NCBI GenBank assembly: GCA_012797605.1
Contig: JAAZOT010000056.1
Location: forward strand, 1 to 53,861
Length of the DNA: 53,861 bases
Source: Spirochaetales bacterium
GTDB taxonomy: Bacteria > Spirochaetota > JAAYUW01
Direction of reading: 5' to 3'
The notes under the pieces were generated by a model that was not told the DNA's origin, made no database searches, and saw nothing but the letters and a program-made list of their open reading frames with translations. Below, in pieces: positions 17,065 through 27,841 of this stretch (within the stretch, counting starts at the first letter, position 1; each line of letters opens with the position of its first letter). Position numbers and translations under genes: made by a program.

Positions 17065-18969
17065 ATGAATAAATATTTTACTTTTATCTTAATATTATCC
17101 TTTCTTATAATTTTTAGCTTTCAAAATTCAAATGCTGTCAGTTATTATCAAAATGGATTGAATTTTGAAGAGAAAAAAGAGTACTTAAAAGCGATAGAAC
17201 AGTTTTTAAAAGCCATAGAGCTTAATCCAAACTACTTTGATGCTTATTATCATCTAGCATCTTGCTATTTTCTACTTGAAAAGTATGAAGAAGCAAATGA
17301 TATTATACAGAAAGGTTTAAGACTCGAATATGAAGATAACCCATCTTTGCTTTTATATGCAAAAATACTCATAAAACTTGGAGATCTTGCAAAAGCCGAA
17401 GGTATCTGCGACTCAATTATTAATCGAAACCCGACTTTTCTTGATGCCTATTTTTTAAAAGCTGAGATTAAGATTTATCAATCAAAAATAAGTGAAGCCT
17501 TTGATATCTATTCTAAACTTTTAAGAAGATATCCTGATGATTGGAAGGTAAATCTCTACCTTTATAAATTTTATCAAAACATCGGAAAGGATAAAGAATC
17601 ACTTATATATTTGAGAAAAGCTTTAGATCTTGCTCCATATGAGCCTGCAGTTTTTGAGGAATTATCTTACTATTATTTTAATAAAAATGATATTCCTCAA
17701 ACCGAAGAATTTTTGCAAAGATTATTTGAACTTGATCCAAAAAATCCACAAGGACTTTTTATAAAAGCATATATACTAATAAAACTGGATAAATTTGAAG
17801 AGGCTTCAAATATTCTTCAAAAACTTTATGAGATTTATCCGACAAGATTAAATGTACTTTGGCTAAACTCATATCTGGCAGAAAAATTAAATAATTACGA
17901 TAAAGCAATTAAACTTTTAAGTTCTACGTTGACATTGTTCCCCTATGATGAAATGGTAAGGTTTTATTTAGAAGAGTTGATTATCAAAGCCAATCAAATG
18001 CAATTTTATGATTTAAGATCTCAACTTGCTGAGTATAATTTTAAGTGGGCAAATTTTTTCTTTTCAAATGGTTTTTCACTTAAAGGTGAAATCTTACTCA
18101 GAAGAGCAGTTAGGCTTATGCCTATGAATACAAATTATAGATGGACCTTAAGTGAAATGTTCAGATCTAGAAAAGCATATTTTAAGCAACTTGAACAGTA
18201 TAACATACTTAAAGACCTTGGATATAGTGGTATTTCAACAAAGATAGATGTTTTAACTTACTCTTTGAGAAATTCACTTGAAAATAAATATAAGATAAAA
18301 CCATACTCCATTACAGATAGCTTCGTTACTTTAGGAATTTTCGCAATGCCTTCAAATTTTAGAGAAGATCACTATAATATAAATCTCATCTTTTCTCAGA
18401 TGCTATTTGATAAACTTGCATCTATATATGGGATAAATCTTTACCTCCATAATGAAAATATAGATTCTTTAGAGCAAATAGCTAAGATTTCTAAAGAAAA
18501 AAATATTGATTATGCTATTATAATAGATAATATCGAACCTGTTCCTAGAAATGGTTATAGAATCTATACCAAAATGATAAATCCAGATAATTTATATACC
18601 CTTGATACCAAAATTTTTTATGCAAGTCTAGATTTCCCTATTCTTGAAATATCCTTATATTCCAAAGAATATATCAACTCTATCATACCTTGTCGAGGCA
18701 AAGTTCTAGATGCTGTTGGTAGTACAGTTCTTGTAAACATCGGTTATATTAACGGAATAACAAAAGATACTGAGTTTATAATAATAAATAAAAATCAACT
18801 TAAGAAGAATTTCAACTCATTTGGTTTTAATACTGAAATAGGTGTTATGGCAACAGCTAAAATAAAAGAACTTTCTGAAACCTGTGCATTACTTGAAATA
18901 ACTAAAAAAGACATATACTCAAAAGTAAATATTGGTGATTTTGTATTTATAGCACCAAAGAAAAAATAA
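17065..18969 (+). CDS. Exported TPR protein with FlgT-like C-terminal domain
   Basis: 634 aa. A cleavable-looking signal peptide ends near SFQNSNA (about residue 24). At least seven TPR units follow (about 25-390), beginning QNGLNFEEKKEYLKAIEQFLKAIELNPNYFDAYYHLA. About 410-540 is an alpha/beta region with IDYAIIIDNIEP, similar in style to CsgG/FlgT-type fold segments. The last ~95 residues (GKVLDAVGSTVLVNIGYINGITKDTEFIII ... GVMATAKIKEL) resemble the FlgT C-terminal SH3-like domain found in envelope proteins. AAGGAAAG precedes the ATG. It is probably periplasmic or outer-membrane associated; function unknown. Confidence 0.65.
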   Translation: MNKYFTFILILSFLIIFSFQNSNAVSYYQNGLNFEEKKEYLKAIEQFLKAIELNPNYFDAYYHLASCYFLLEKYEEANDIIQKGLRLEYEDNPSLLLYAKILIKLGDLAKAEGICDSIINRNPTFLDAYFLKAEIKIYQSKISEAFDIYSKLLRRYPDDWKVNLYLYKFYQNIGKDKESLIYLRKALDLAPYEPAVFEELSYYYFNKNDIPQTEEFLQRLFELDPKNPQGLFIKAYILIKLDKFEEASNILQKLYEIYPTRLNVLWLNSYLAEKLNNYDKAIKLLSSTLTLFPYDEMVRFYLEELIIKANQMQFYDLRSQLAEYNFKWANFFFSNGFSLKGEILLRRAVRLMPMNTNYRWTLSEMFRSRKAYFKQLEQYNILKDLGYSGISTKIDVLTYSLRNSLENKYKIKPYSITDSFVTLGIFAMPSNFREDHYNINLIFSQMLFDKLASIYGINLYLHNENIDSLEQIAKISKEKNIDYAIIIDNIEPVPRNGYRIYTKMINPDNLYTLDTKIFYASLDFPILEISLYSKEYINSIIPCRGKVLDAVGSTVLVNIGYINGITKDTEFIIINKNQLKKNFNSFGFNTEIGVMATAKIKELSETCALLEITKKDIYSKVNIGDFVFIAPKKK

Positions 18970-19016: not shown

Positions 19017-19565
19017 ATGTACAAATTTAACCTTCATAAGGATAGTTTTGTTAAATCTCACTTATATATGGTATCAAAATCAAAAAAGATAAGCATTGCT
19101 TTATCAACAAACTTATTTAATGTCCTAGTATTACTTAATTTAATGGGTATTATATCTATCCAACTGACTCAAAAGACAAAATCATTATGGCATTCTATAA
19201 TTTTTATTTTTTCTTATATATTTTTATTTTTTCTTTATGATATATCGCAAAAATTTTGGTACAAATTATTCTATAGAGAAATTATAAATGAAAAGTTTGG
19301 AAAAGAAGAATTTATAGAAATAGCAATAGATTTTGACGATTTTTATTTTTATTGGATAGATAAAAGTGGAGAAAGTTAGATTTTATACAATGCTATAGAT
19401 AAATTTGTTAAGACAAAAAAATATATTTTTTTGATTTTAAAGAATAAAGATATCTTGCCTATTCCACAAAATTTTAAAGGATTTGAAGATTTTATTTCTA
19501 AGATAAAAGTCGTACTTAAAACTAAAGGAATCGATTTTATGGAAGATTTAAAGAGCAAAATTTAA
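19017..19565 (+). pseudogene. YcxB-like membrane protein gene interrupted by an in-frame TAG
   Basis: The track shows 120 aa ending at TAG (19377-19379). Reading on in the same frame gives ILYNAIDKFVKTKKYIFLIL and then ILPIPQNFKGFEDF, ending at TAA 19563-19565, for 182 codons in all. The joined product looks like YcxB-family proteins: two membrane helices (about 30-50 and 58-80), then a conserved C-terminal domain whose core (a SxxxWxxI segment, a strand pair, and IP) straddles the stop. A single change from AAG or another sense codon to TAG would explain it. AAGGAG precedes the start. TAG is a normal stop elsewhere (e.g. 1257), so a recent nonsense mutation is likelier than recoding. YcxB function is unknown. 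Confidence 0.7.
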
Positions 19566-19642
19566 TAACGCCAAGAAAAAGATTTGAGATGCAATTCTTA
19601 TAAATCTTTATTATCAAAAATCTTAAAGGTAAATAAAAAGGG

Positions 19643-20035
19643 ATGAATAAAACTTTAGAAAACCTTAAAGAAAAAGCAAAAAGTATAAAGAATGAAATAA
19701 AAACACTATATTTTGCATATAAAAACCCAAAAACACCAATTTTACCTAAGTTTATTATAATCTTAACCATAGGTTATGCTTTAAGTCCAATTGATTTGAT
19801 TCCAGATTTTATCCCTATCCTTGGTTATCTTGATGATTTAATTATTCTTCCAGCATTGATAATGTTATCTATAAAGTTAATACCAAAAAATATAATAGAG
19901 ATTTCAAGGAAAGAAGCCGAAACCGAAAATATAAACTTGAAAAAGAATTGGGTTTTCGCAATTTTATTTATTATAATTTGGATTCTTATTATCTTTTTTA
20001 TAGTAAAAGGAATTTTGAAGTTTGTAAAGTTTTAG
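19643..20035 (+). CDS. DUF1232 (YkvA-like) membrane protein
   Basis: 130 aa. The DUF1232 core GYALSPIDLIPDFIPILGYLDDLIILPALI is at about 45-75, followed by a second hydrophobic segment at the C terminus (NWVFAILFIIIWILIIFFIV). The SPIDLIPDFIPxxGxxDD motif defines this widespread small-protein family of unknown function. AAGGG stands close before the ATG. It follows the broken YcxB-like gene by 77 bp on the same strand and converges with the exported-protein cassette. Confidence 0.85.
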   Translation: MNKTLENLKEKAKSIKNEIKTLYFAYKNPKTPILPKFIIILTIGYALSPIDLIPDFIPILGYLDDLIILPALIMLSIKLIPKNIIEISRKEAETENINLKKNWVFAILFIIIWILIIFFIVKGILKFVKF

Positions 20036-20060
20036 TTTTAAAACAATTCTGTAAATATAA

Positions 20061-21596
20061 TCAATAATATTCACATTTTAATGTATAACTCTTTGTTTGA
20101 TTAAAAGATTCGTTTGAACCATAAACCAGAATATAAATCTGTTCAATTTGGGATAATAGTTGTTGTTCAATAGCAATTTCTTCAATAGAATCATCTGGAA
20201 GTGAAGATTGTAAAAGATATAGTTCAGAATTTTTGTAATAATAGATTTTCAGATCATAATCACATTCCTCTGGTGGAATCAATATTATTTTTAAGCCATT
20301 ATTTGTTATCACAGGAAAAGTGAAATAATCATAATCATTTTCGCACCATATATAAGATTGGATATTAAAAGGAATTTGAAGTAAAAAAGCCTTTGTTTTT
20401 GAACCATTTGGTTCATAGCTATCACAATTTTCTATCCCACTATGATTATAAGATAAGATGAAGTCAAGATAAAATGGATATTTTTCGCAGAAATATACAT
20501 TTTCAGGGTTATAGCAACTAACATAATTATCATAGGATGGGTACTTTGGAAAATATATGGATATCCCAGTTAATAATTCTGGATAATTTGATATGACTAT
20601 TTTTGAAAGTTCATTTTCAAGCTCAAAAGATTGTAAACTAAAAACACTAAAATCAACAGTTGTTTGAGCAAAATTACTTATTTTATCTCTTTGTTGCCTT
20701 AAAGCCGATATAGATATAGAAGGTAAAATATTCTTAAATTTATCTATAAAAGATAATAAGGCTTTATCTTTATCTATTTTTAAGGCAGAAATAGATATAT
20801 CATTATTATTATTTTCAATGTAATAATTTACATAGGAAGTGCAAATATCATCGATAATTACTTCGATATCTTTTTTGGAAAAAATCGAAGATATAAGTTC
20901 TTTATATGGCATACCATCCGCTGGAATAGGTTTTTGTGAAAATATAATATAATCTACTAGATCTATAAAGTTATAAGCGACTTCCAAAGTTGCCATATTA
21001 CAAGCATCTAGTATTATTAAATCAAGATGAAAATTTTTAACTTTTAAAAGACAAGATCTCAATTGTCTCATATATATAACGGATTCTGATTCTTCATCAC
21101 TGCATATTTCTTTATTTTTAGATCTCCAGCCACCTCCATGATTCCAAATATCGAGATAATAGTGTTTGGAAGGATAATTCTTAACTGCAAACTCGCAGAA
21201 TTTTTGGATAGTTTCTGGATTTCCCATATCTAGATCTTCATCTATATATAAAGTTGTTAATCCAAGTTCATCTGAAGATAATTCCTCTAATTCTCCATCA
21301 GGATTATATACTATTTTATAAAGCCTTGTATCATCCCAATCTTCATATGTTATAGGTCCATCATACATCCTGTCTATCAAAACAAGAGCTACACAATTAT
21401 TCTCGTTTTCACAATATCCACTTATTATTTCGTCAAAATCTTTTATGGCAAAATCATCAAGGTTGTTTGCTCCATCAATATAAAATAAAAAAACCTTATC
21501 ATAGATAATATTTTGAAAAAAGATACATGCATTTAAAAAAGACATAATAATTAATACAAAAATAAATAAAATTAAAGCATAATAATATCTTTTCAT
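20061..21596 (-). CDS. Clostripain-family (C11) cysteine peptidase lipoprotein
   Basis: 511 aa from the ATG at 21596; the track's GTG start adds three residues. The signal peptide ends in SFLNAC (Cys24), a good lipobox. The caspase-like peptidase core has the catalytic His in YLDIWNHGGGW (His153) and the nucleophile in LIILDACNMATLEVAY (Cys199), both characteristic of clostripain/C11 enzymes that cleave after Arg or Lys. The C-terminal ~130 residues (from YEPNGSKTKAFLLQIPFNIQSY) look like a beta-sandwich pre-peptidase domain. It is the last gene of the exported cassette; its spacer and signal region resemble those of the propeller genes upstream. Confidence 0.88.
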   Translation of the reverse strand: MKRYYYALILFIFVLIIMSFLNACIFFQNIIYDKVFLFYIDGANNLDDFAIKDFDEIISGYCENENNCVALVLIDRMYDGPITYEDWDDTRLYKIVYNPDGELEELSSDELGLTTLYIDEDLDMGNPETIQKFCEFAVKNYPSKHYYLDIWNHGGGWRSKNKEICSDEESESVIYMRQLRSCLLKVKNFHLDLIILDACNMATLEVAYNFIDLVDYIIFSQKPIPADGMPYKELISSIFSKKDIEVIIDDICTSYVNYYIENNNNDISISALKIDKDKALLSFIDKFKNILPSISISALRQQRDKISNFAQTTVDFSVFSLQSFELENELSKIVISNYPELLTGISIYFPKYPSYDNYVSCYNPENVYFCEKYPFYLDFILSYNHSGIENCDSYEPNGSKTKAFLLQIPFNIQSYIWCENDYDYFTFPVITNNGLKIILIPPEECDYDLKIYYYKNSELYLLQSSLPDDSIEEIAIEQQLLSQIEQIYILVYGSNESFNQTKSYTLKCEYY

Positions 21597-21714
21597 AAAT
21601 CCCACTTTCGATGTTAATTTTCAATATTAATAGGGATAAAACTTATTTATTTTTACTTTTTTTTTTAATTTAATAAGGTAAATGTAAGACCAAAATTAAA
21701 ATATTATAATTCAA

Positions 21715-23265
21715 CTATATCAATTTCAATATTATTCTATCTTTATCCATTTTATTTTCATATAGTTCATTGAAAGATATTCTATTATCTTTATTTTCTT
21801 TTATCTCTTCTCCTTTTTTTATACTTTTTTCCCTATCTTTTTCTTTATTCTTTTTTCCTTTTCGTATCTTATATCCCCCATAAAATATAAAACTAATTAC
21901 TATAAATAATGGAATAATAAAATACTCTGTCCTATATCTTTCACTTATTTCAAAGCAATAAAAATAGTCTGTCCATGTTGCAACATATATTCTATTACCA
22001 ACAACCCATAAAGGGTTTCTAACTCCAACTCCAGTATATATATCTTCTATTCTACCTACTTTTTTACCAGTTGTAATATCATATATTATTATTGCAGAAA
22101 TTGAATATACTGGTTGAATATACCATTTGTTATTCATAACTACACCCATAGCATAATTATTGTTAAGACTATCATTTGATGGATCTTCATATAAAGAATT
22201 ATCTGTAAACCATATTAACTTTCCATTGGTAATATCAAAGCAACCAACATAATAATTAAAACATGGATATATTAGCTTACCATTAAAGTATGTAAGAGGA
22301 GCTTCAGGTGCTGAACTTCCATATTCTGGTGTCATATCAGATGGACTTTCCCATATCTTTTCATAATCTTTGCTTTCATCATAACATGCAAATCTATAGT
22401 CTCTATGATAGCCACTATCATCGCGCATAAGGTATGAACTTATTATTTTATTATCAATAACAGTTGGACCAAGCCAATTCCAAACATCATTTGATTCTTG
22501 TTCTTCTATTATCTTTATTATACATTCTTCATTTGTATAAGAAGGATCCGCAAGTTTTTCACAGTCAAGAACTATTAATGCAGCATTTTTGGGATAATCA
22601 GAAGTTATATACATCTTTCCATTGTATATGCATTTATATGAGTTCATAACTACTTCAAAATCAAAAACTCTACTATTCAAAAGAACTGGTGTTGTACTTT
22701 CTTTATCAAAGCAAAATATCGTGAGTTGGTGATAAGTATTTCCTGAATAATCATAGCTTAATATTACAAAATTCGTATTACCATCAGTATCTGGTGCTAT
22801 TCCGTCATAAGCACCTCCATCTATTAAAAGATATTTCCCATAATATTGTCCACTTTCTGCATCAACTATATGTAGATAATAGTTATTTCCTGGAATAGAA
22901 AAATAAAATGAAATTATATATAATAAATTTCCAAGTTTTTTTACCTGTCTTATATTATCTTGTGACGGATCTAAAGATGATTCTGTTATATTTGTCTTCC
23001 ATTTTAAGTTTCCATCTAAATCGTATTTTAATACATATGCTTCATCATTTAAGCAATCTTCTGCAGCTAAATAAAAATATGTACCATCAAAATCATTATA
23101 GTTCATTGATGCTATAGATAATCCAACATGTTTTTCCCATATCAGTTGATGATCGATAGATTCTTTGAATTTCAATTCACCATTGTTCCACCATATACAG
23201 CTACTAAAGGATATTAAGATTATTAGAGAAAATAAAAATAATACTATTAAATAATATCTTTTCAT
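21715..23265 (-). CDS. PQQ-type beta-propeller lipoprotein with C-terminal membrane helix (copy A)
   Basis: 516 aa from the ATG at 23265; the track's TTG start is unlikely given its paralogues. The lipobox region is LISFSSCIWW. The body has repeats such as EAYVLKYDLDGNLKWKTNI and GCFDITNGKLIWFTDNSL, the strand-Trp pattern of PQQ-like (YncE/BamB-style) propeller blades. Near the C terminus a helix (YFIIPLFIVISFIFYGGYKI) is followed by a Lys/Glu-rich tail, an unusual second anchor for a lipoprotein. It is a near-identical tandem paralogue of the upstream gene (23386-24927). It is probably surface or periplasmic; ligand unknown. Confidence 0.8.
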   Translation of the reverse strand: MKRYYLIVLFLFSLIILISFSSCIWWNNGELKFKESIDHQLIWEKHVGLSIASMNYNDFDGTYFYLAAEDCLNDEAYVLKYDLDGNLKWKTNITESSLDPSQDNIRQVKKLGNLLYIISFYFSIPGNNYYLHIVDAESGQYYGKYLLIDGGAYDGIAPDTDGNTNFVILSYDYSGNTYHQLTIFCFDKESTTPVLLNSRVFDFEVVMNSYKCIYNGKMYITSDYPKNAALIVLDCEKLADPSYTNEECIIKIIEEQESNDVWNWLGPTVIDNKIISSYLMRDDSGYHRDYRFACYDESKDYEKIWESPSDMTPEYGSSAPEAPLTYFNGKLIYPCFNYYVGCFDITNGKLIWFTDNSLYEDPSNDSLNNNYAMGVVMNNKWYIQPVYSISAIIIYDITTGKKVGRIEDIYTGVGVRNPLWVVGNRIYVATWTDYFYCFEISERYRTEYFIIPLFIVISFIFYGGYKIRKGKKNKEKDREKSIKKGEEIKENKDNRISFNELYENKMDKDRIILKLI

Positions 23266-23385
23266 AAATCCCACTTCCAATATTAATCTTTCAATATTAA
23301 TAGGGATAAAACTTTATCTTTTTTACTTTTTATTTTAACTTAACAAGGTAAATACAAGATTAAAAACTAAAATATAAAAATTCAA

Positions 23386-24927
23386 CTATACCAATTTCAA
23401 TATTATTTTATCTTTATCCATTTTATTTTCATATAGTTCATTAGATAATATTATATTATCCTTATTTTCTATTATCTCTTCTCCTTTTTTTATGTTTTTT
23501 TCCATCTCTTTACTTTTGTTCTTTTTGCATTTTCCTATCTTATATCCCCCATAAAATATAAAACTAATTACTATAAATAATGGAATAATAAAATACTCTG
23601 TCCTATATCTTTCACTTATTTCAAAGCAATAAAAATAGTCTGTCCATGTTGCAACATATATTCTATTACCAACCACCCATAAAGGGTTTCTAACTCCAGC
23701 TCAAGTTGGTATATTTTCTATTCTTCCAACCTTTTTTCCAGTTGTAATATCATATATAATTATTGCACTGTTCGAATTTACTGGTTGAATATACCATTTG
23801 TTATTCATAACTGCACCCATAGCATCATTATTGTTACCCCTATCATTTGCTGGATCTTCACATAAAGAATTATCTGTAAACCATAGCAATTTCCCATTGT
23901 TAACATCAAAGCATCCAACATAATAATTAAAACATGGATATATTACCTTACCATTAAAATAGGTTAGAGGAGCTTTAGGTGGTGAATTTCCTACTATAGG
24001 TATCATATTTGAAGGACTTTCCCATATCTTTTCATAATCTTTGCTTTCATCATAACATGCGAATCTATAATCATTGTCTGCTACAGAATATGAACTGATT
24101 ATTTTATTATCAATAACAGTTGGACCAAGCCAATTCCAAACATCATTTGATTCTTGTTCTTCTATTATCTTTATTATACATTCTTCATTTGTATAAGAAG
24201 GATTCGCAAGTTTTTCACAGTCAAGAACTATTAATGCAGCATTTTTGGGATAATCAGAAGTTATATACATCTTTCCATCATATATACATTTATATGAGTT
24301 CATAACTACTTCAAAATCAAAAACTCTACTATTCAAAAGAACTGGTGTTGTACTTTCTTTATCAAAGCAAAATATCGTGAGTTTGCGATAAGTATTTCCA
24401 GAATAATCGCAGCTTAATATTACAAAATTCGTATTACCATCAGTATCTGGTGCTATTCCGTCATAAGCACTTCCTTCTGTTAAAAGATATTTCCCATAAT
24501 ATTGTCCGCTTTCTGCATCAACTATATGTAGATAATAGCTATTTCCTGGAATAGAAAAATTAAATGAAATTATATATAATAAATTTCCAAGTTTTTTTAC
24601 CTGTACTATAGTATCTTGTGATGGATCTGAAGATAATTGAGTTATATTTATCTTCCATTTTAAGTTTCCATCTAAATCGTATTTTAATACATATGCTTCA
24701 TCATTTAAGCAATCTTTTGCAGCTAAATAAAAATATTGTCCATCAAAATCATTATAGTTCATTGATGCTATAGATAATCCAACATATTTTTCCCATATCA
24801 GTTGATGATCGATAGATTCTTTGAACTTCCAATCATTTTCGTTATTGTTCCACCATATACAACTACTAAAGGATATTATAAATATTAGAGAAAATAAAAA
24901 TAATACTATTAAATAATATCTTTTCAT
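23386..24927 (-). pseudogene. Propeller lipoprotein copy B, interrupted by an in-frame TGA
   Basis: The track splits this into 23701-24927 and 23386-23676, but both lie in one frame of 514 codons. Copy A reads RIEDIYTGVGVRNPLWVVGNRIY; copy B reads RIENIPT-stop-AGVRNPLWVVGNRIY, with TGA at 23701-23703 where copy A has GGA. One G-to-T change explains it. The truncated product keeps the lipobox (SFSSCIWW) and most of the propeller but loses the last blade, the membrane helix and the charged tail, so it could still be a secreted lipoprotein. AAAGGAT precedes the ATG. Identity with copy A is very high over the full length. Confidence 0.85.
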
Positions 24928-24952
24928 AAATTATCCTTTTAAGAATATTAGT

Positions 24953-24968
24953 AGGGGGATAACCCCCC
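24953..24968. other. GC-rich hairpin between lipase and propeller genes
   Basis: AGGGGG-ATAA-CCCCCC is a compact GC hairpin in very AT-rich DNA, 26 bp before the copy B start codon. No U-run follows on the minus strand, so it is more likely an mRNA-stabilising or attenuating element inside the operon than a strong terminator. Confidence 0.5.
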
Positions 24969-25023
24969 ACTTTTAAATTTTTAACTAACAAATATTAAAA
25001 ACAAAAAAATAAAAAATTTAATT

Positions 25024-26556
25024 TTATTGGCTGTTGCCATGTTGATTGTTGTCACTAATAAAATTATATGCATCTTTTAATCTTGATTTTAATTGCTCTT
25101 CTGCTTCTTCTTGTTGTGATGGAATAAGAATATCTTTTCCCGAATCTGGAACAATATGGTTAATATAAGTCATATAGAAGTTTTGGTCTAATTCATATTT
25201 TCTATATCCAACAATTTCCTGACTAGATAAAGGTATTAAAAGATCATGGGAACTGTTATAGTCAGATTTGTTTATAGATCTGTCTATATGATCTTCTGGA
25301 TTATACGAATTTCCTCCATTTGTCACCCAATAGGTAAAATCTGAAGAAAATTTACTCCATAAATCTTTAGCTTTTTTATTTTGTATGCTTTTTATATAAA
25401 AATATGCTCCTAAAAAAAACTGATGTTTTCTCCATAACTTAGTAGCAGAATCAATTGCCGTCACTGCTAAAACATTATGTATTGAACATATCTGATTGAT
25501 AATTATATTCGCTTTATCTACATTCATTATATCACCATTTTTTCCAATCAATGAAGCTCTTTTAATTGTATAGCTTCCACCAGTTTCTTTTTTAATATTT
25601 TCTGGATTATTTAAATCATTTAAGAATGCTGAACCTGGTCTAAATTCTGAGGTTATTTCTCTAACATTTGCTGGATTAGCTCCTCTATATGAAGGTGAAG
25701 ATTGAAGTTCAAGTGCACCTGCTAGAATTTGTCCAAACCATTCGGCTCCCTCAACTTGTGGTAATATATTATCACATAGAAATTTTAAACCTTGCCCACT
25801 TAAAAGAGCAACTCCTTTTTCTTCATCAGATTTAGAAAAAGCATTAAAATTATTTTCAAGTTCCTCAAAATCAATTTTATCTTTTAGTGATTCCTTTGCA
25901 TATTCATATAATTTTACATTTATATTCTCAAAATCATTTTGCTCTTCGGTTGATAATAAAATAGAAATCATTGGTTGAATAGTTAACAATATCAAATCCA
26001 AAAAAGTACTATTTGTAAAATAAGCATCAACACTTGCAATTAAATTCCATCCAACTCTATTACAAACAGCTTTTGCATTTTGTTTTTGTGCAATATATCC
26101 CCCCGTATTTGGTGAATCAAGAGTAATAAAGCCCTTGAATTTGCCACTTGCTATTAAATCTGGATATCTTTCTGCTATATATTGTGCCATACTTCTGACT
26201 CTAAGGCCACCCTGTGAAAAACCAAGTAAAATAAATGGATTATTAATTTTTGGATATAATTCGTCAATCATTTTTTTTGATTTTTCTTTTATCAGCATAT
26301 TACCACTATAATTAGTAAAATCACTTGCCCAATAAGAATCATCTATATTATAAGAATAGAGATCACTCGCAGCACCATCAATGTTATAAACAGTAATACT
26401 ATTGGCTTTCAATAAATCAGAAATATACTGTTTCCAATTAACTAAAATTACATTTGTACCTTCTCCTAAAATTGGAGTTAATACAAATATTAAAAGAATA
26501 AGAATTGTAAAAGATGTTCTTACTATATTTTTTATTTTATTCTTTATGTTTTTCAT
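25024..26556 (-). CDS. Secreted alpha/beta-hydrolase, lipase-like
   Basis: 510 aa from the ATG at 26556, which has AGAGG before it and leaves a 13-bp gap after the previous gene; the longer track start would overlap that gene. A signal peptide (about 8-32, ending LTPILGEG) directs export. The nucleophile elbow is LLGFSQGGLRVRS (Ser114), followed by GKFKGFITLDSPNTGG, the pattern of triacylglycerol lipases and palmitoyl-thioesterase-like hydrolases. Possible Asp and His members of the triad cannot be fixed by eye; SSHDLLIPLSS is a candidate His region. It probably cleaves lipids or esters outside the cell. It belongs to the exported cassette. Confidence 0.82.
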   Translation of the reverse strand: MKNIKNKIKNIVRTSFTILILLIFVLTPILGEGTNVILVNWKQYISDLLKANSITVYNIDGAASDLYSYNIDDSYWASDFTNYSGNMLIKEKSKKMIDELYPKINNPFILLGFSQGGLRVRSMAQYIAERYPDLIASGKFKGFITLDSPNTGGYIAQKQNAKAVCNRVGWNLIASVDAYFTNSTFLDLILLTIQPMISILLSTEEQNDFENINVKLYEYAKESLKDKIDFEELENNFNAFSKSDEEKGVALLSGQGLKFLCDNILPQVEGAEWFGQILAGALELQSSPSYRGANPANVREITSEFRPGSAFLNDLNNPENIKKETGGSYTIKRASLIGKNGDIMNVDKANIIINQICSIHNVLAVTAIDSATKLWRKHQFFLGAYFYIKSIQNKKAKDLWSKFSSDFTYWVTNGGNSYNPEDHIDRSINKSDYNSSHDLLIPLSSQEIVGYRKYELDQNFYMTYINHIVPDSGKDILIPSQQEEAEEQLKSRLKDAYNFISDNNQHGNSQ

Positions 26557-26569
26557 GATCTTACCTCTT

Positions 26570-27529
26570 TTATAATGAATATTCAAAAGTCATAACTGTA
26601 ATATACTGGTCTGAAATATCTGGAAGTATACTTAACTGTTTACTTTCTATTTTGCTAAGATTTATATGACCATTTTCAACATTATAATAGTAATTCATGT
26701 CTGTAAGAATTTTACTATATGAATCAAGTATCTTCATTGAAGTTATCCTGTTTAATTTACTATCTACAACAATGGAAACGGAAGACTTTTCTATTGTCTT
26801 TGAAAACTGATAAAGATTATCTGAGATCTTTATTGGCATACCAAAAACAGTTATAAATTGATCTACTATATTTTCATAGCTCAAATTTTTATTATTTAAA
26901 CTTTTATCAAGATTCTGCATAATCCCTTGTATTAAAAGTTTCTTTTCACTTTTATTATTAAATATCTTCTTTGAATTTTCAACCTGATAAATATTACCAT
27001 TTTCTATTATATAATTTGTTGTTCCATTTTCATCAGTTAATGTTATATTTGTAATTTCATCTACCTTTTCTATTTCAATAATTGTCTCTTGTTCACTTGT
27101 TCCTTCTTTTGTAGAAACCTGTGTGTGAGTTTTTATTTTTGTCTTATAGTTTCCATCATAAACAAGTTCTGCATATTGGTCTCCTACCATAAGCTTTTCA
27201 GAATATGTAATCTGCTGGTTACTAGTCGAATCTATTGCTGTAACTGAAATATCATAGGTCCTTTTAATCTCTGGTATCTGCCAGCATATCTTATTTGAAT
27301 TATCTGGAAGAGAAATACCATCAATACTCCATTGATAACTCACATCTTTTGTCTTATTTGCTTTAGCAAATATCGTTATCTTTTGTCCAACTGATATTGG
27401 TTGATCTTTTGGATTTTCAATACCAAAAGAGATAATTTTTAACTGACGCAAATTTTCTGTCTCTGTAAATGTACAGGCAAAAATTAAAAGGTATAAAACA
27501 ATAAGTAGGATAAGAACACTTCTTTTCAT
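26570..27529 (-). CDS. Lipoprotein with Ig/PKD-like and LolA-like regions
   Basis: 319 aa. The signal peptide ends LLIFACTF, a usable lipobox. About 30-115 is an Ig/PKD-like beta-sandwich (SVGQKITIFAKAN ... VSYQWSIDGISL ... YDISVTAID). About 120-319 alternates strands in the manner of LolA/LppX-type outer-membrane lipoprotein-sorting folds (ETIIEIEKVDEITNITL, KSSVSIVVDSKLNRITSMKIL). AGGAGG sits seven bases before the ATG. It is the first gene behind the A-tract promoter, and the lipase gene follows after 13 bp. The fold calls are from pattern only; a lipase-associated chaperone or lipid-binding role would fit the neighbourhood but is unproved. Confidence 0.65.
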   Translation of the reverse strand: MKRSVLILLIVLYLLIFACTFTETENLRQLKIISFGIENPKDQPISVGQKITIFAKANKTKDVSYQWSIDGISLPDNSNKICWQIPEIKRTYDISVTAIDSTSNQQITYSEKLMVGDQYAELVYDGNYKTKIKTHTQVSTKEGTSEQETIIEIEKVDEITNITLTDENGTTNYIIENGNIYQVENSKKIFNNKSEKKLLIQGIMQNLDKSLNNKNLSYENIVDQFITVFGMPIKISDNLYQFSKTIEKSSVSIVVDSKLNRITSMKILDSYSKILTDMNYYYNVENGHINLSKIESKQLSILPDISDQYITVMTFEYSL

Positions 27530-27573
27530 ATCTTCCTCCTATAAAATTTAATTATGTTTAAAGATAACTAATA

Positions 27574-27601
27574 ATTATATTATTTTTTTTTTTTTTGTCA
27601 A
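27574..27601 (-). promoter_or_regulatory. Consensus promoter with poly(A) spacer driving the exported cassette
   Basis: On the minus strand: TTGACA (27596-27601), 16-bp spacer, TATAAT (27574-27579), both perfect. The spacer is almost entirely a run of A (14 T in a row on the plus strand, 27583-27596, one of them inside the -35). It lies 44 bp before the lipoprotein start. A-tract length changes by slippage would alter -35/-10 spacing. Confidence 0.85.
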
Positions 27602-27841
27602 GTTATTTGTTTTAAATTTTGGATAAATTTAATGATTTTAATATTTGTCAAATATTATGTTTAACTTACTACTAAATATATTTAAAGTAATTCAAAAAAA
27701 GGAAAAATTTTCACTGATTAAGAGATATTTAGATATTGCATATGTGGATATTACTTATGAAATAAAGAAAACAAAGAAATTGCAATTAATATGAATTATA
27801 AATTTGAAATAATATAAATTAAAAAAAATTAAATATAAAGT
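27602..27841. other. AT-rich spacer without recognised gene
   Basis: Between the cassette promoter and the end of sppA. No ORF with a ribosome site, no RNA fold and no hairpin was seen. It separates two minus-strand units and could hold upstream regulator sites for the A-tract promoter. Confidence 0.6.

Follow-up and report, generated by a model that had tools for sequence, protein, structure and literature searches.

A poly-A promoter spacer upstream of a predicted lipoprotein gene in a Spirochaetales genome: probably an ordinary promoter with a slippage-capable tract

The minus strand of a Spirochaetales contig carries, at 27601–27574, two perfect promoter hexamers separated almost wholly by a run of As. 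Is this A-tract a switch, as a sequence-only reading had proposed in describing the element as a candidate phase-variable promoter, or is it the spacer of an ordinary promoter? The window (the whole stretch of 53,861 nt that was analyzed) is contig C92 of a 2.07-Mb assembly consisting of 104 contigs and ∼90% complete; its G+C content is 27%. The genome falls within Exilispira (Spirochaetota) or near that genus, the sole named genome in which the neighbouring sppA gene turned up being an Exilispira MAG. Statistics on box spacing were collected from 848 kb of the source genome together with 403 kb of a same-genus relative, G001 (1.25 Mb), with gene starts in the sampled sequence called mechanically. 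Repeat statistics were collected from 848 kb of the source genome. The close comparison set included two same-genus genomes and one genome of the same order.

On the minus strand, positions 27601 to 27574 read directly as TTGAC-A14-TAATATAAT. Written as boxes and spacer, the sequence is TTGACA AAAAAAAAAAAAATAA TATAAT, with a hexamer match of 12/12 and a spacer of 16 bp. Direct reading thus bore out what had been described earlier, i.e. perfect TTGACA and TATAAT boxes, a 16-bp spacer and a 14-base A-run that takes in the final A of TTGACA. The features of the locus, from the promoter to the end of the putative transcript, are as follows.

27596–27601, minus strand: −35 box TTGACA (6/6 match).
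27583–27596, minus strand: A14 tract, uninterrupted (direct reading); it shares its first A with the −35 box, as the final base there, and contributes 13 As to the spacer.
27574–27579, minus strand: −10 box TATAAT (6/6 match), 16 bp from the −35 box.
27536–27542, minus strand: ribosome-binding site AGGAGGA, separated from the ATG by ∼6 bases (positions were read by eye and may be off by one or two bases).
26570–27529, minus strand: ORF for a predicted lipoprotein of 319 aa, with ATG at 27529 and a signal peptide ending in LLIFAC.
25024–26556, minus strand: exported lipase/thioesterase-like protein of 510 aa with a GFSQG motif and a Palm_thioest match; ribosome-binding site and ATG at 26556 read directly.
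24950–24971, minus strand: strong hairpin (−17.1 kcal/mol, z −2.73), followed by a weak U tail.

The A14 tract is the longest homopolymer of the window, and between 20 and 35 kb of the window the TTGACA/TATAAT pair at 27601–27574 is the sole 12/12 site. With 13 of the A14 bases located in the 16-bp spacer, the element has the long homopolymer inside the spacer that characterizes spacer-type switches. A change by one A would put TATAAT at 15 or 17 bp, and no other good −10 box would then stand at 16 bp. The element had also been called the only promoter of its kind; this is correct within the window, but the genome has a second promoter with an A-tract spacer (A11, with weaker boxes), at C49.

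Consensus by itself proves little in DNA of such AT-richness, since the genome as a whole shows no enrichment of perfect pairs: the pattern TTGACA-N15-19-TATAAT was found 6 times in the whole 2.07-Mb assembly versus 7 times for the reversed control pattern. Among the assembly's perfect pairs, only the one at 27601–27574 spans a long A-tract. When flanks were simulated under a model of the lineage's upstream DNA, perfect boxes in register around A14 appeared in 1 of 69,583 cases. The distribution of spacings is also informative. Near-consensus box pairs on the gene strand (848 kb of the source genome and 403 kb of G001) had a sharp peak at 16 bp (n = 49), as against 11 pairs at 15 bp, 19 at 17 bp and 7 at 18 bp; the wrong strand of the same sample had no 16-bp peak (n = 8 at 16 bp). 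The lineage, therefore, appears to prefer a spacing of 16 bp, not 17 bp.

Given the rarity of the arrangement in simulated flanks and the match between its 16-bp spacer and the lineage peak, the element at 27601–27574 is in all probability a genuine promoter serving the lipoprotein gene. It has the composition of a sigma-70 type promoter, with both hexamers at the lineage-preferred spacing and a ribosome-binding site and ATG downstream. Since A14, as assembled, gives the lineage-optimal spacing, this allele is probably ON. That the element is not a promoter at all, with T14 being the U-run of a plus-strand terminator or the boxes being a product of chance in AT-rich DNA, is hardly credible. 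The region is indeed very AT-rich, and the parity of perfect pairs with the reversed control pattern is what a chance origin would lead one to expect; still, boxes in register around A14 are very unlikely by chance, a good ribosome-binding site and start codon follow them, and the genes on both sides of T14 are on the minus strand. The terminator reading was dropped after a terminator scan, which found no stem before T14.

The product of the first gene, the 319-aa predicted lipoprotein, has no match in Pfam or NCBIfam. The lipase-like protein scores 28.9 bits against Pfam Palm_thioest, just above the cut-off of 26.8. The two genes are probably co-transcribed. The hairpin at 24950–24971 is likely to be the end, or a partial end, of this two-gene transcript; with a strong hairpin after the lipase-like gene, the promoter probably drives two genes. 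Read-through past the hairpin into the two tandem lipoprotein genes and the clostripain-family gene is probably partial at most. The promoter had been said to drive a lipoprotein/secreted-enzyme cluster; it does lead into a lipoprotein gene and a gene for a secreted lipase-like protein, but ‘cluster’ is too broad a term, as the hairpin comes next.

How unusual is a tract of this length? The assembly contains two runs of at least 14 As, and the tract at 27583–27596 ties for the longest A-run. In intergenic sequence the probability of extension, P(A|A6), is 0.41 per added base; 11 runs reach a length of at least 11. The geometric tail of intergenic lengths predicts ∼0.8 runs of length at least 14 versus 2 seen. 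The length of A14 is thus approximately that of the tail of intergenic runs, and the existence of the tract needs no special selection. The other A14 of the assembly (L015:1509-1522) has no good promoter boxes around it; it separates the enolase gene from a divergent transport gene. Besides this enolase/transporter pair, the other long A-tracts adjoin metK/phosphoribosyltransferase-like, ruvB-like and rlmH-like genes and two lipoprotein genes (gene names were assigned by inspection of translations). The neighbours of long A-tracts are mostly housekeeping genes, with lipoprotein genes beside two of the tracts. In the 848 kb sampled, the longest G/C run has 8 bases, simple tandem repeats are few, and the several long repeats beside surface or exported genes that mark a contingency-locus genome were not found. 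The repeat profile of this genome is unlike that of genomes using repeat switches widely.

A rigid A-tract could be kept for its shape, with promoter strength as the selected trait and tract length held constant. One promoter argues for such structural tuning. In the divergent metK/phosphoribosyltransferase-like promoter region of two Exilispira-group genomes (L050:716-726 and L058:779-789), the promoter on the side of the phosphoribosyltransferase-like gene (prt) has the form TTTAC[T/A]...A11...TAAAAT with a 16-bp spacer; both A11 and the spacing are the same in the source genome and in G001. When regions upstream of orthologues were compared with the same-genus relative, the metK/prt tract was the only long run conserved, as A11. 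As both A11 and the 16-bp spacer have been preserved across two species, A-tract spacers can be stable here, a conclusion drawn from a single case with a tract shorter than A14. On the other hand, the gene strand shows no excess over the opposite strand in long A-runs framed by promoter boxes; A-tract spacers are, therefore, not a general promoter device in this genome. We consider maintenance of A14 for promoter shape to be improbable, though less so than the absence of a promoter.

The two genes belong to a block of exported-protein genes (19480–27820, ∼8.3 kb) that two same-genus genomes lack at the corresponding position. In G001, sequence matching the window at 19.2–19.5 kb runs directly into sppA; in G002, the homologue of window positions 17065–18969 adjoins sppA. 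The G+C content of the block is that of the genome. No relative of the lipoprotein gene was found in 60 near genomes, in 392 other spirochaete genomes or in a wider genome collection; the lipase-like protein had no relative in 40 other relatives either. The lineage restriction of the block suggests an accessory function.

Several further observations were made in and around the block. To its left, the sequence at 19200–19470 has the look of a decayed gene and is similar to a stretch that is intact in G001. The tandem lipoprotein genes at 23386–24927 and 21715–23280 are 88% identical, with patchy (mosaic) divergence; no relative of either was found among 30 other spirochaete genomes. In the upstream copy (23386–24927), an in-frame TGA close to the 3′ end corresponds to GGA in the downstream copy; comparison with the paralogue ruled out a homopolymer frameshift in this broken gene, as the stop is in frame and no slippage is involved. 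Also duplicated are the intergenic spacers that precede the clostripain gene (21606–21714) and the second tandem lipoprotein gene (23281–23385). One of them has A10 and the other AAAATAAAAA; the two being equal in length, the difference suggests substitution, not slippage.

The reading that we favor, and regard as rather likely, is an ordinary strong sigma-70 type promoter that produces a two-gene transcript and has an A-tract spacer capable of slippage. The housekeeping promoter would drive expression of the predicted lipoprotein and of the exported lipase-like protein; its spacer is almost wholly a single A-tract, with A14 setting the boxes at the lineage-preferred 16 bp, and the allele in the assembly would most likely be the fully active one. 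We infer a transcription start near 27567 on the minus strand and, likewise, promoter activity and co-transcription. The evidence for this reading comprises the 12/12 boxes, the flank simulation, the 16-bp peak, the ribosome-binding site and ATG, the hairpin, the fit of the tract to the tail of run lengths, the A11 pair at metK/prt and the MutS1/MutL pair described below. Replication slippage in the tract may occur and would change the spacing. As the spacer is at the lineage-preferred 16 bp, slippage is expected to change output: the promoter would be almost silent with A13 (15 bp), weaker with A15 (17 bp) and weak with A16 or longer tracts.

The step from such a promoter to a true switch, in which slipped-strand mispairing turns the lipoprotein/lipase pair on and off at high frequency through the length of the A-tract, is possible but on the whole doubtful. 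The anatomy is suitable: a homopolymer lies within the spacer, its assembled length is at the lineage optimum, and loss of one A would bring TATAAT to 15 bp, with no other hexamer well suited to serve as −10 box at 16 bp. The products are exported, the lineage-specific block suggests an accessory role, and the same layout, with poly-G, has been proven in this phylum (Treponema pallidum tp0126, PMC7864442). Moreover, a joint longest A-run located exactly where length matters most would also be expected of a switch under selection. Against this stand the single tract allele (a second one was searched for in the assembly, and none was found), the absence of the gene from all relatives searched, the small stock of other repeats in the 848 kb sampled (longest G/C run 8, few simple repeats) and the location of the genome's long A-tracts mostly beside housekeeping genes. 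Mismatch repair is intact as well, with both MutS1 (816.9 bits) and MutL (374.7 bits) above curated cut-offs. What survives of the phase-variation proposal, then, is a promoter that is very probably real and has its spacer at the 16 bp preferred in the lineage; actual variation in length is unsupported by the one allele of the assembly.

Comparison with known systems helps to place the locus. In T. pallidum tp0126, a poly-G tract lies between the −35 and −10 boxes, with an optimum of 17 bp; both its variation and the effect on promoter activity were shown (PMC7864442). The spacer homopolymer of Neisseria meningitidis porA works as that of tp0126 (PMC7864442). The window promoter resembles both in having a homopolymer within the spacer, a tract length that sets the spacing and an exported product, and T. 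pallidum is of the same phylum. It differs from tp0126 in having poly-A instead of poly-G and an apparent optimum of 16 bp instead of 17 bp, and in being known from its anatomy, whereas the effect in tp0126 was measured.

In the vlp promoters of Mycoplasma hyorhinis, the length of an A-tract changes with ON/OFF switching (Citti and Wise 1995, as summarized in PMC10502178). As that summary presents them, the vlp promoters share with the window promoter an A homopolymer in the promoter of a lipoprotein gene; the vlp tract, however, is present in all genes of a multigene family with observed switching, while the window has a single gene with no family, in a genome that has kept MutS and MutL. Length of the T-tract of Helicobacter pylori sabA, and of similar A/T-tracts, tunes transcription, the sabA tract being located beside the −35 box, outside the spacer (PMC4081817). 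Length of the T-tract in the divergent intergenic region of Streptococcus pyogenes Spy1336/R28-Spy1337 alters the transcript level (PMC7098570). These cases are similar to the window promoter in having an A/T homopolymer in or beside a promoter; they differ in tract location, outside the spacer in sabA and in a divergent intergenic region in S. pyogenes, and in that length variation and its effect were measured in both.

Control by spacer homopolymers is already established, including in this phylum, and the window promoter, if a real switch, would be a new instance and not a new kind. What would be particular to it is a solitary poly-A spacer switch of an exported lipoprotein/lipase pair, with a 16-bp rather than a 17-bp optimum, in an environmental, mismatch-repair-proficient spirochaete with no other obvious contingency loci; we put this combination forward tentatively, as a minority reading.

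From the preference for 16 bp, a definite output can be predicted for every length of the tract. If the tract is constant, the locus would be a useful example of a switch-like promoter that is ordinary. Should its length vary, the range of spacer-type phase variation would come to include a little-studied lineage of apparently free-living spirochaetes, which would suggest that exported enzymes are subject to mixed expression in settings other than that of host and pathogen.
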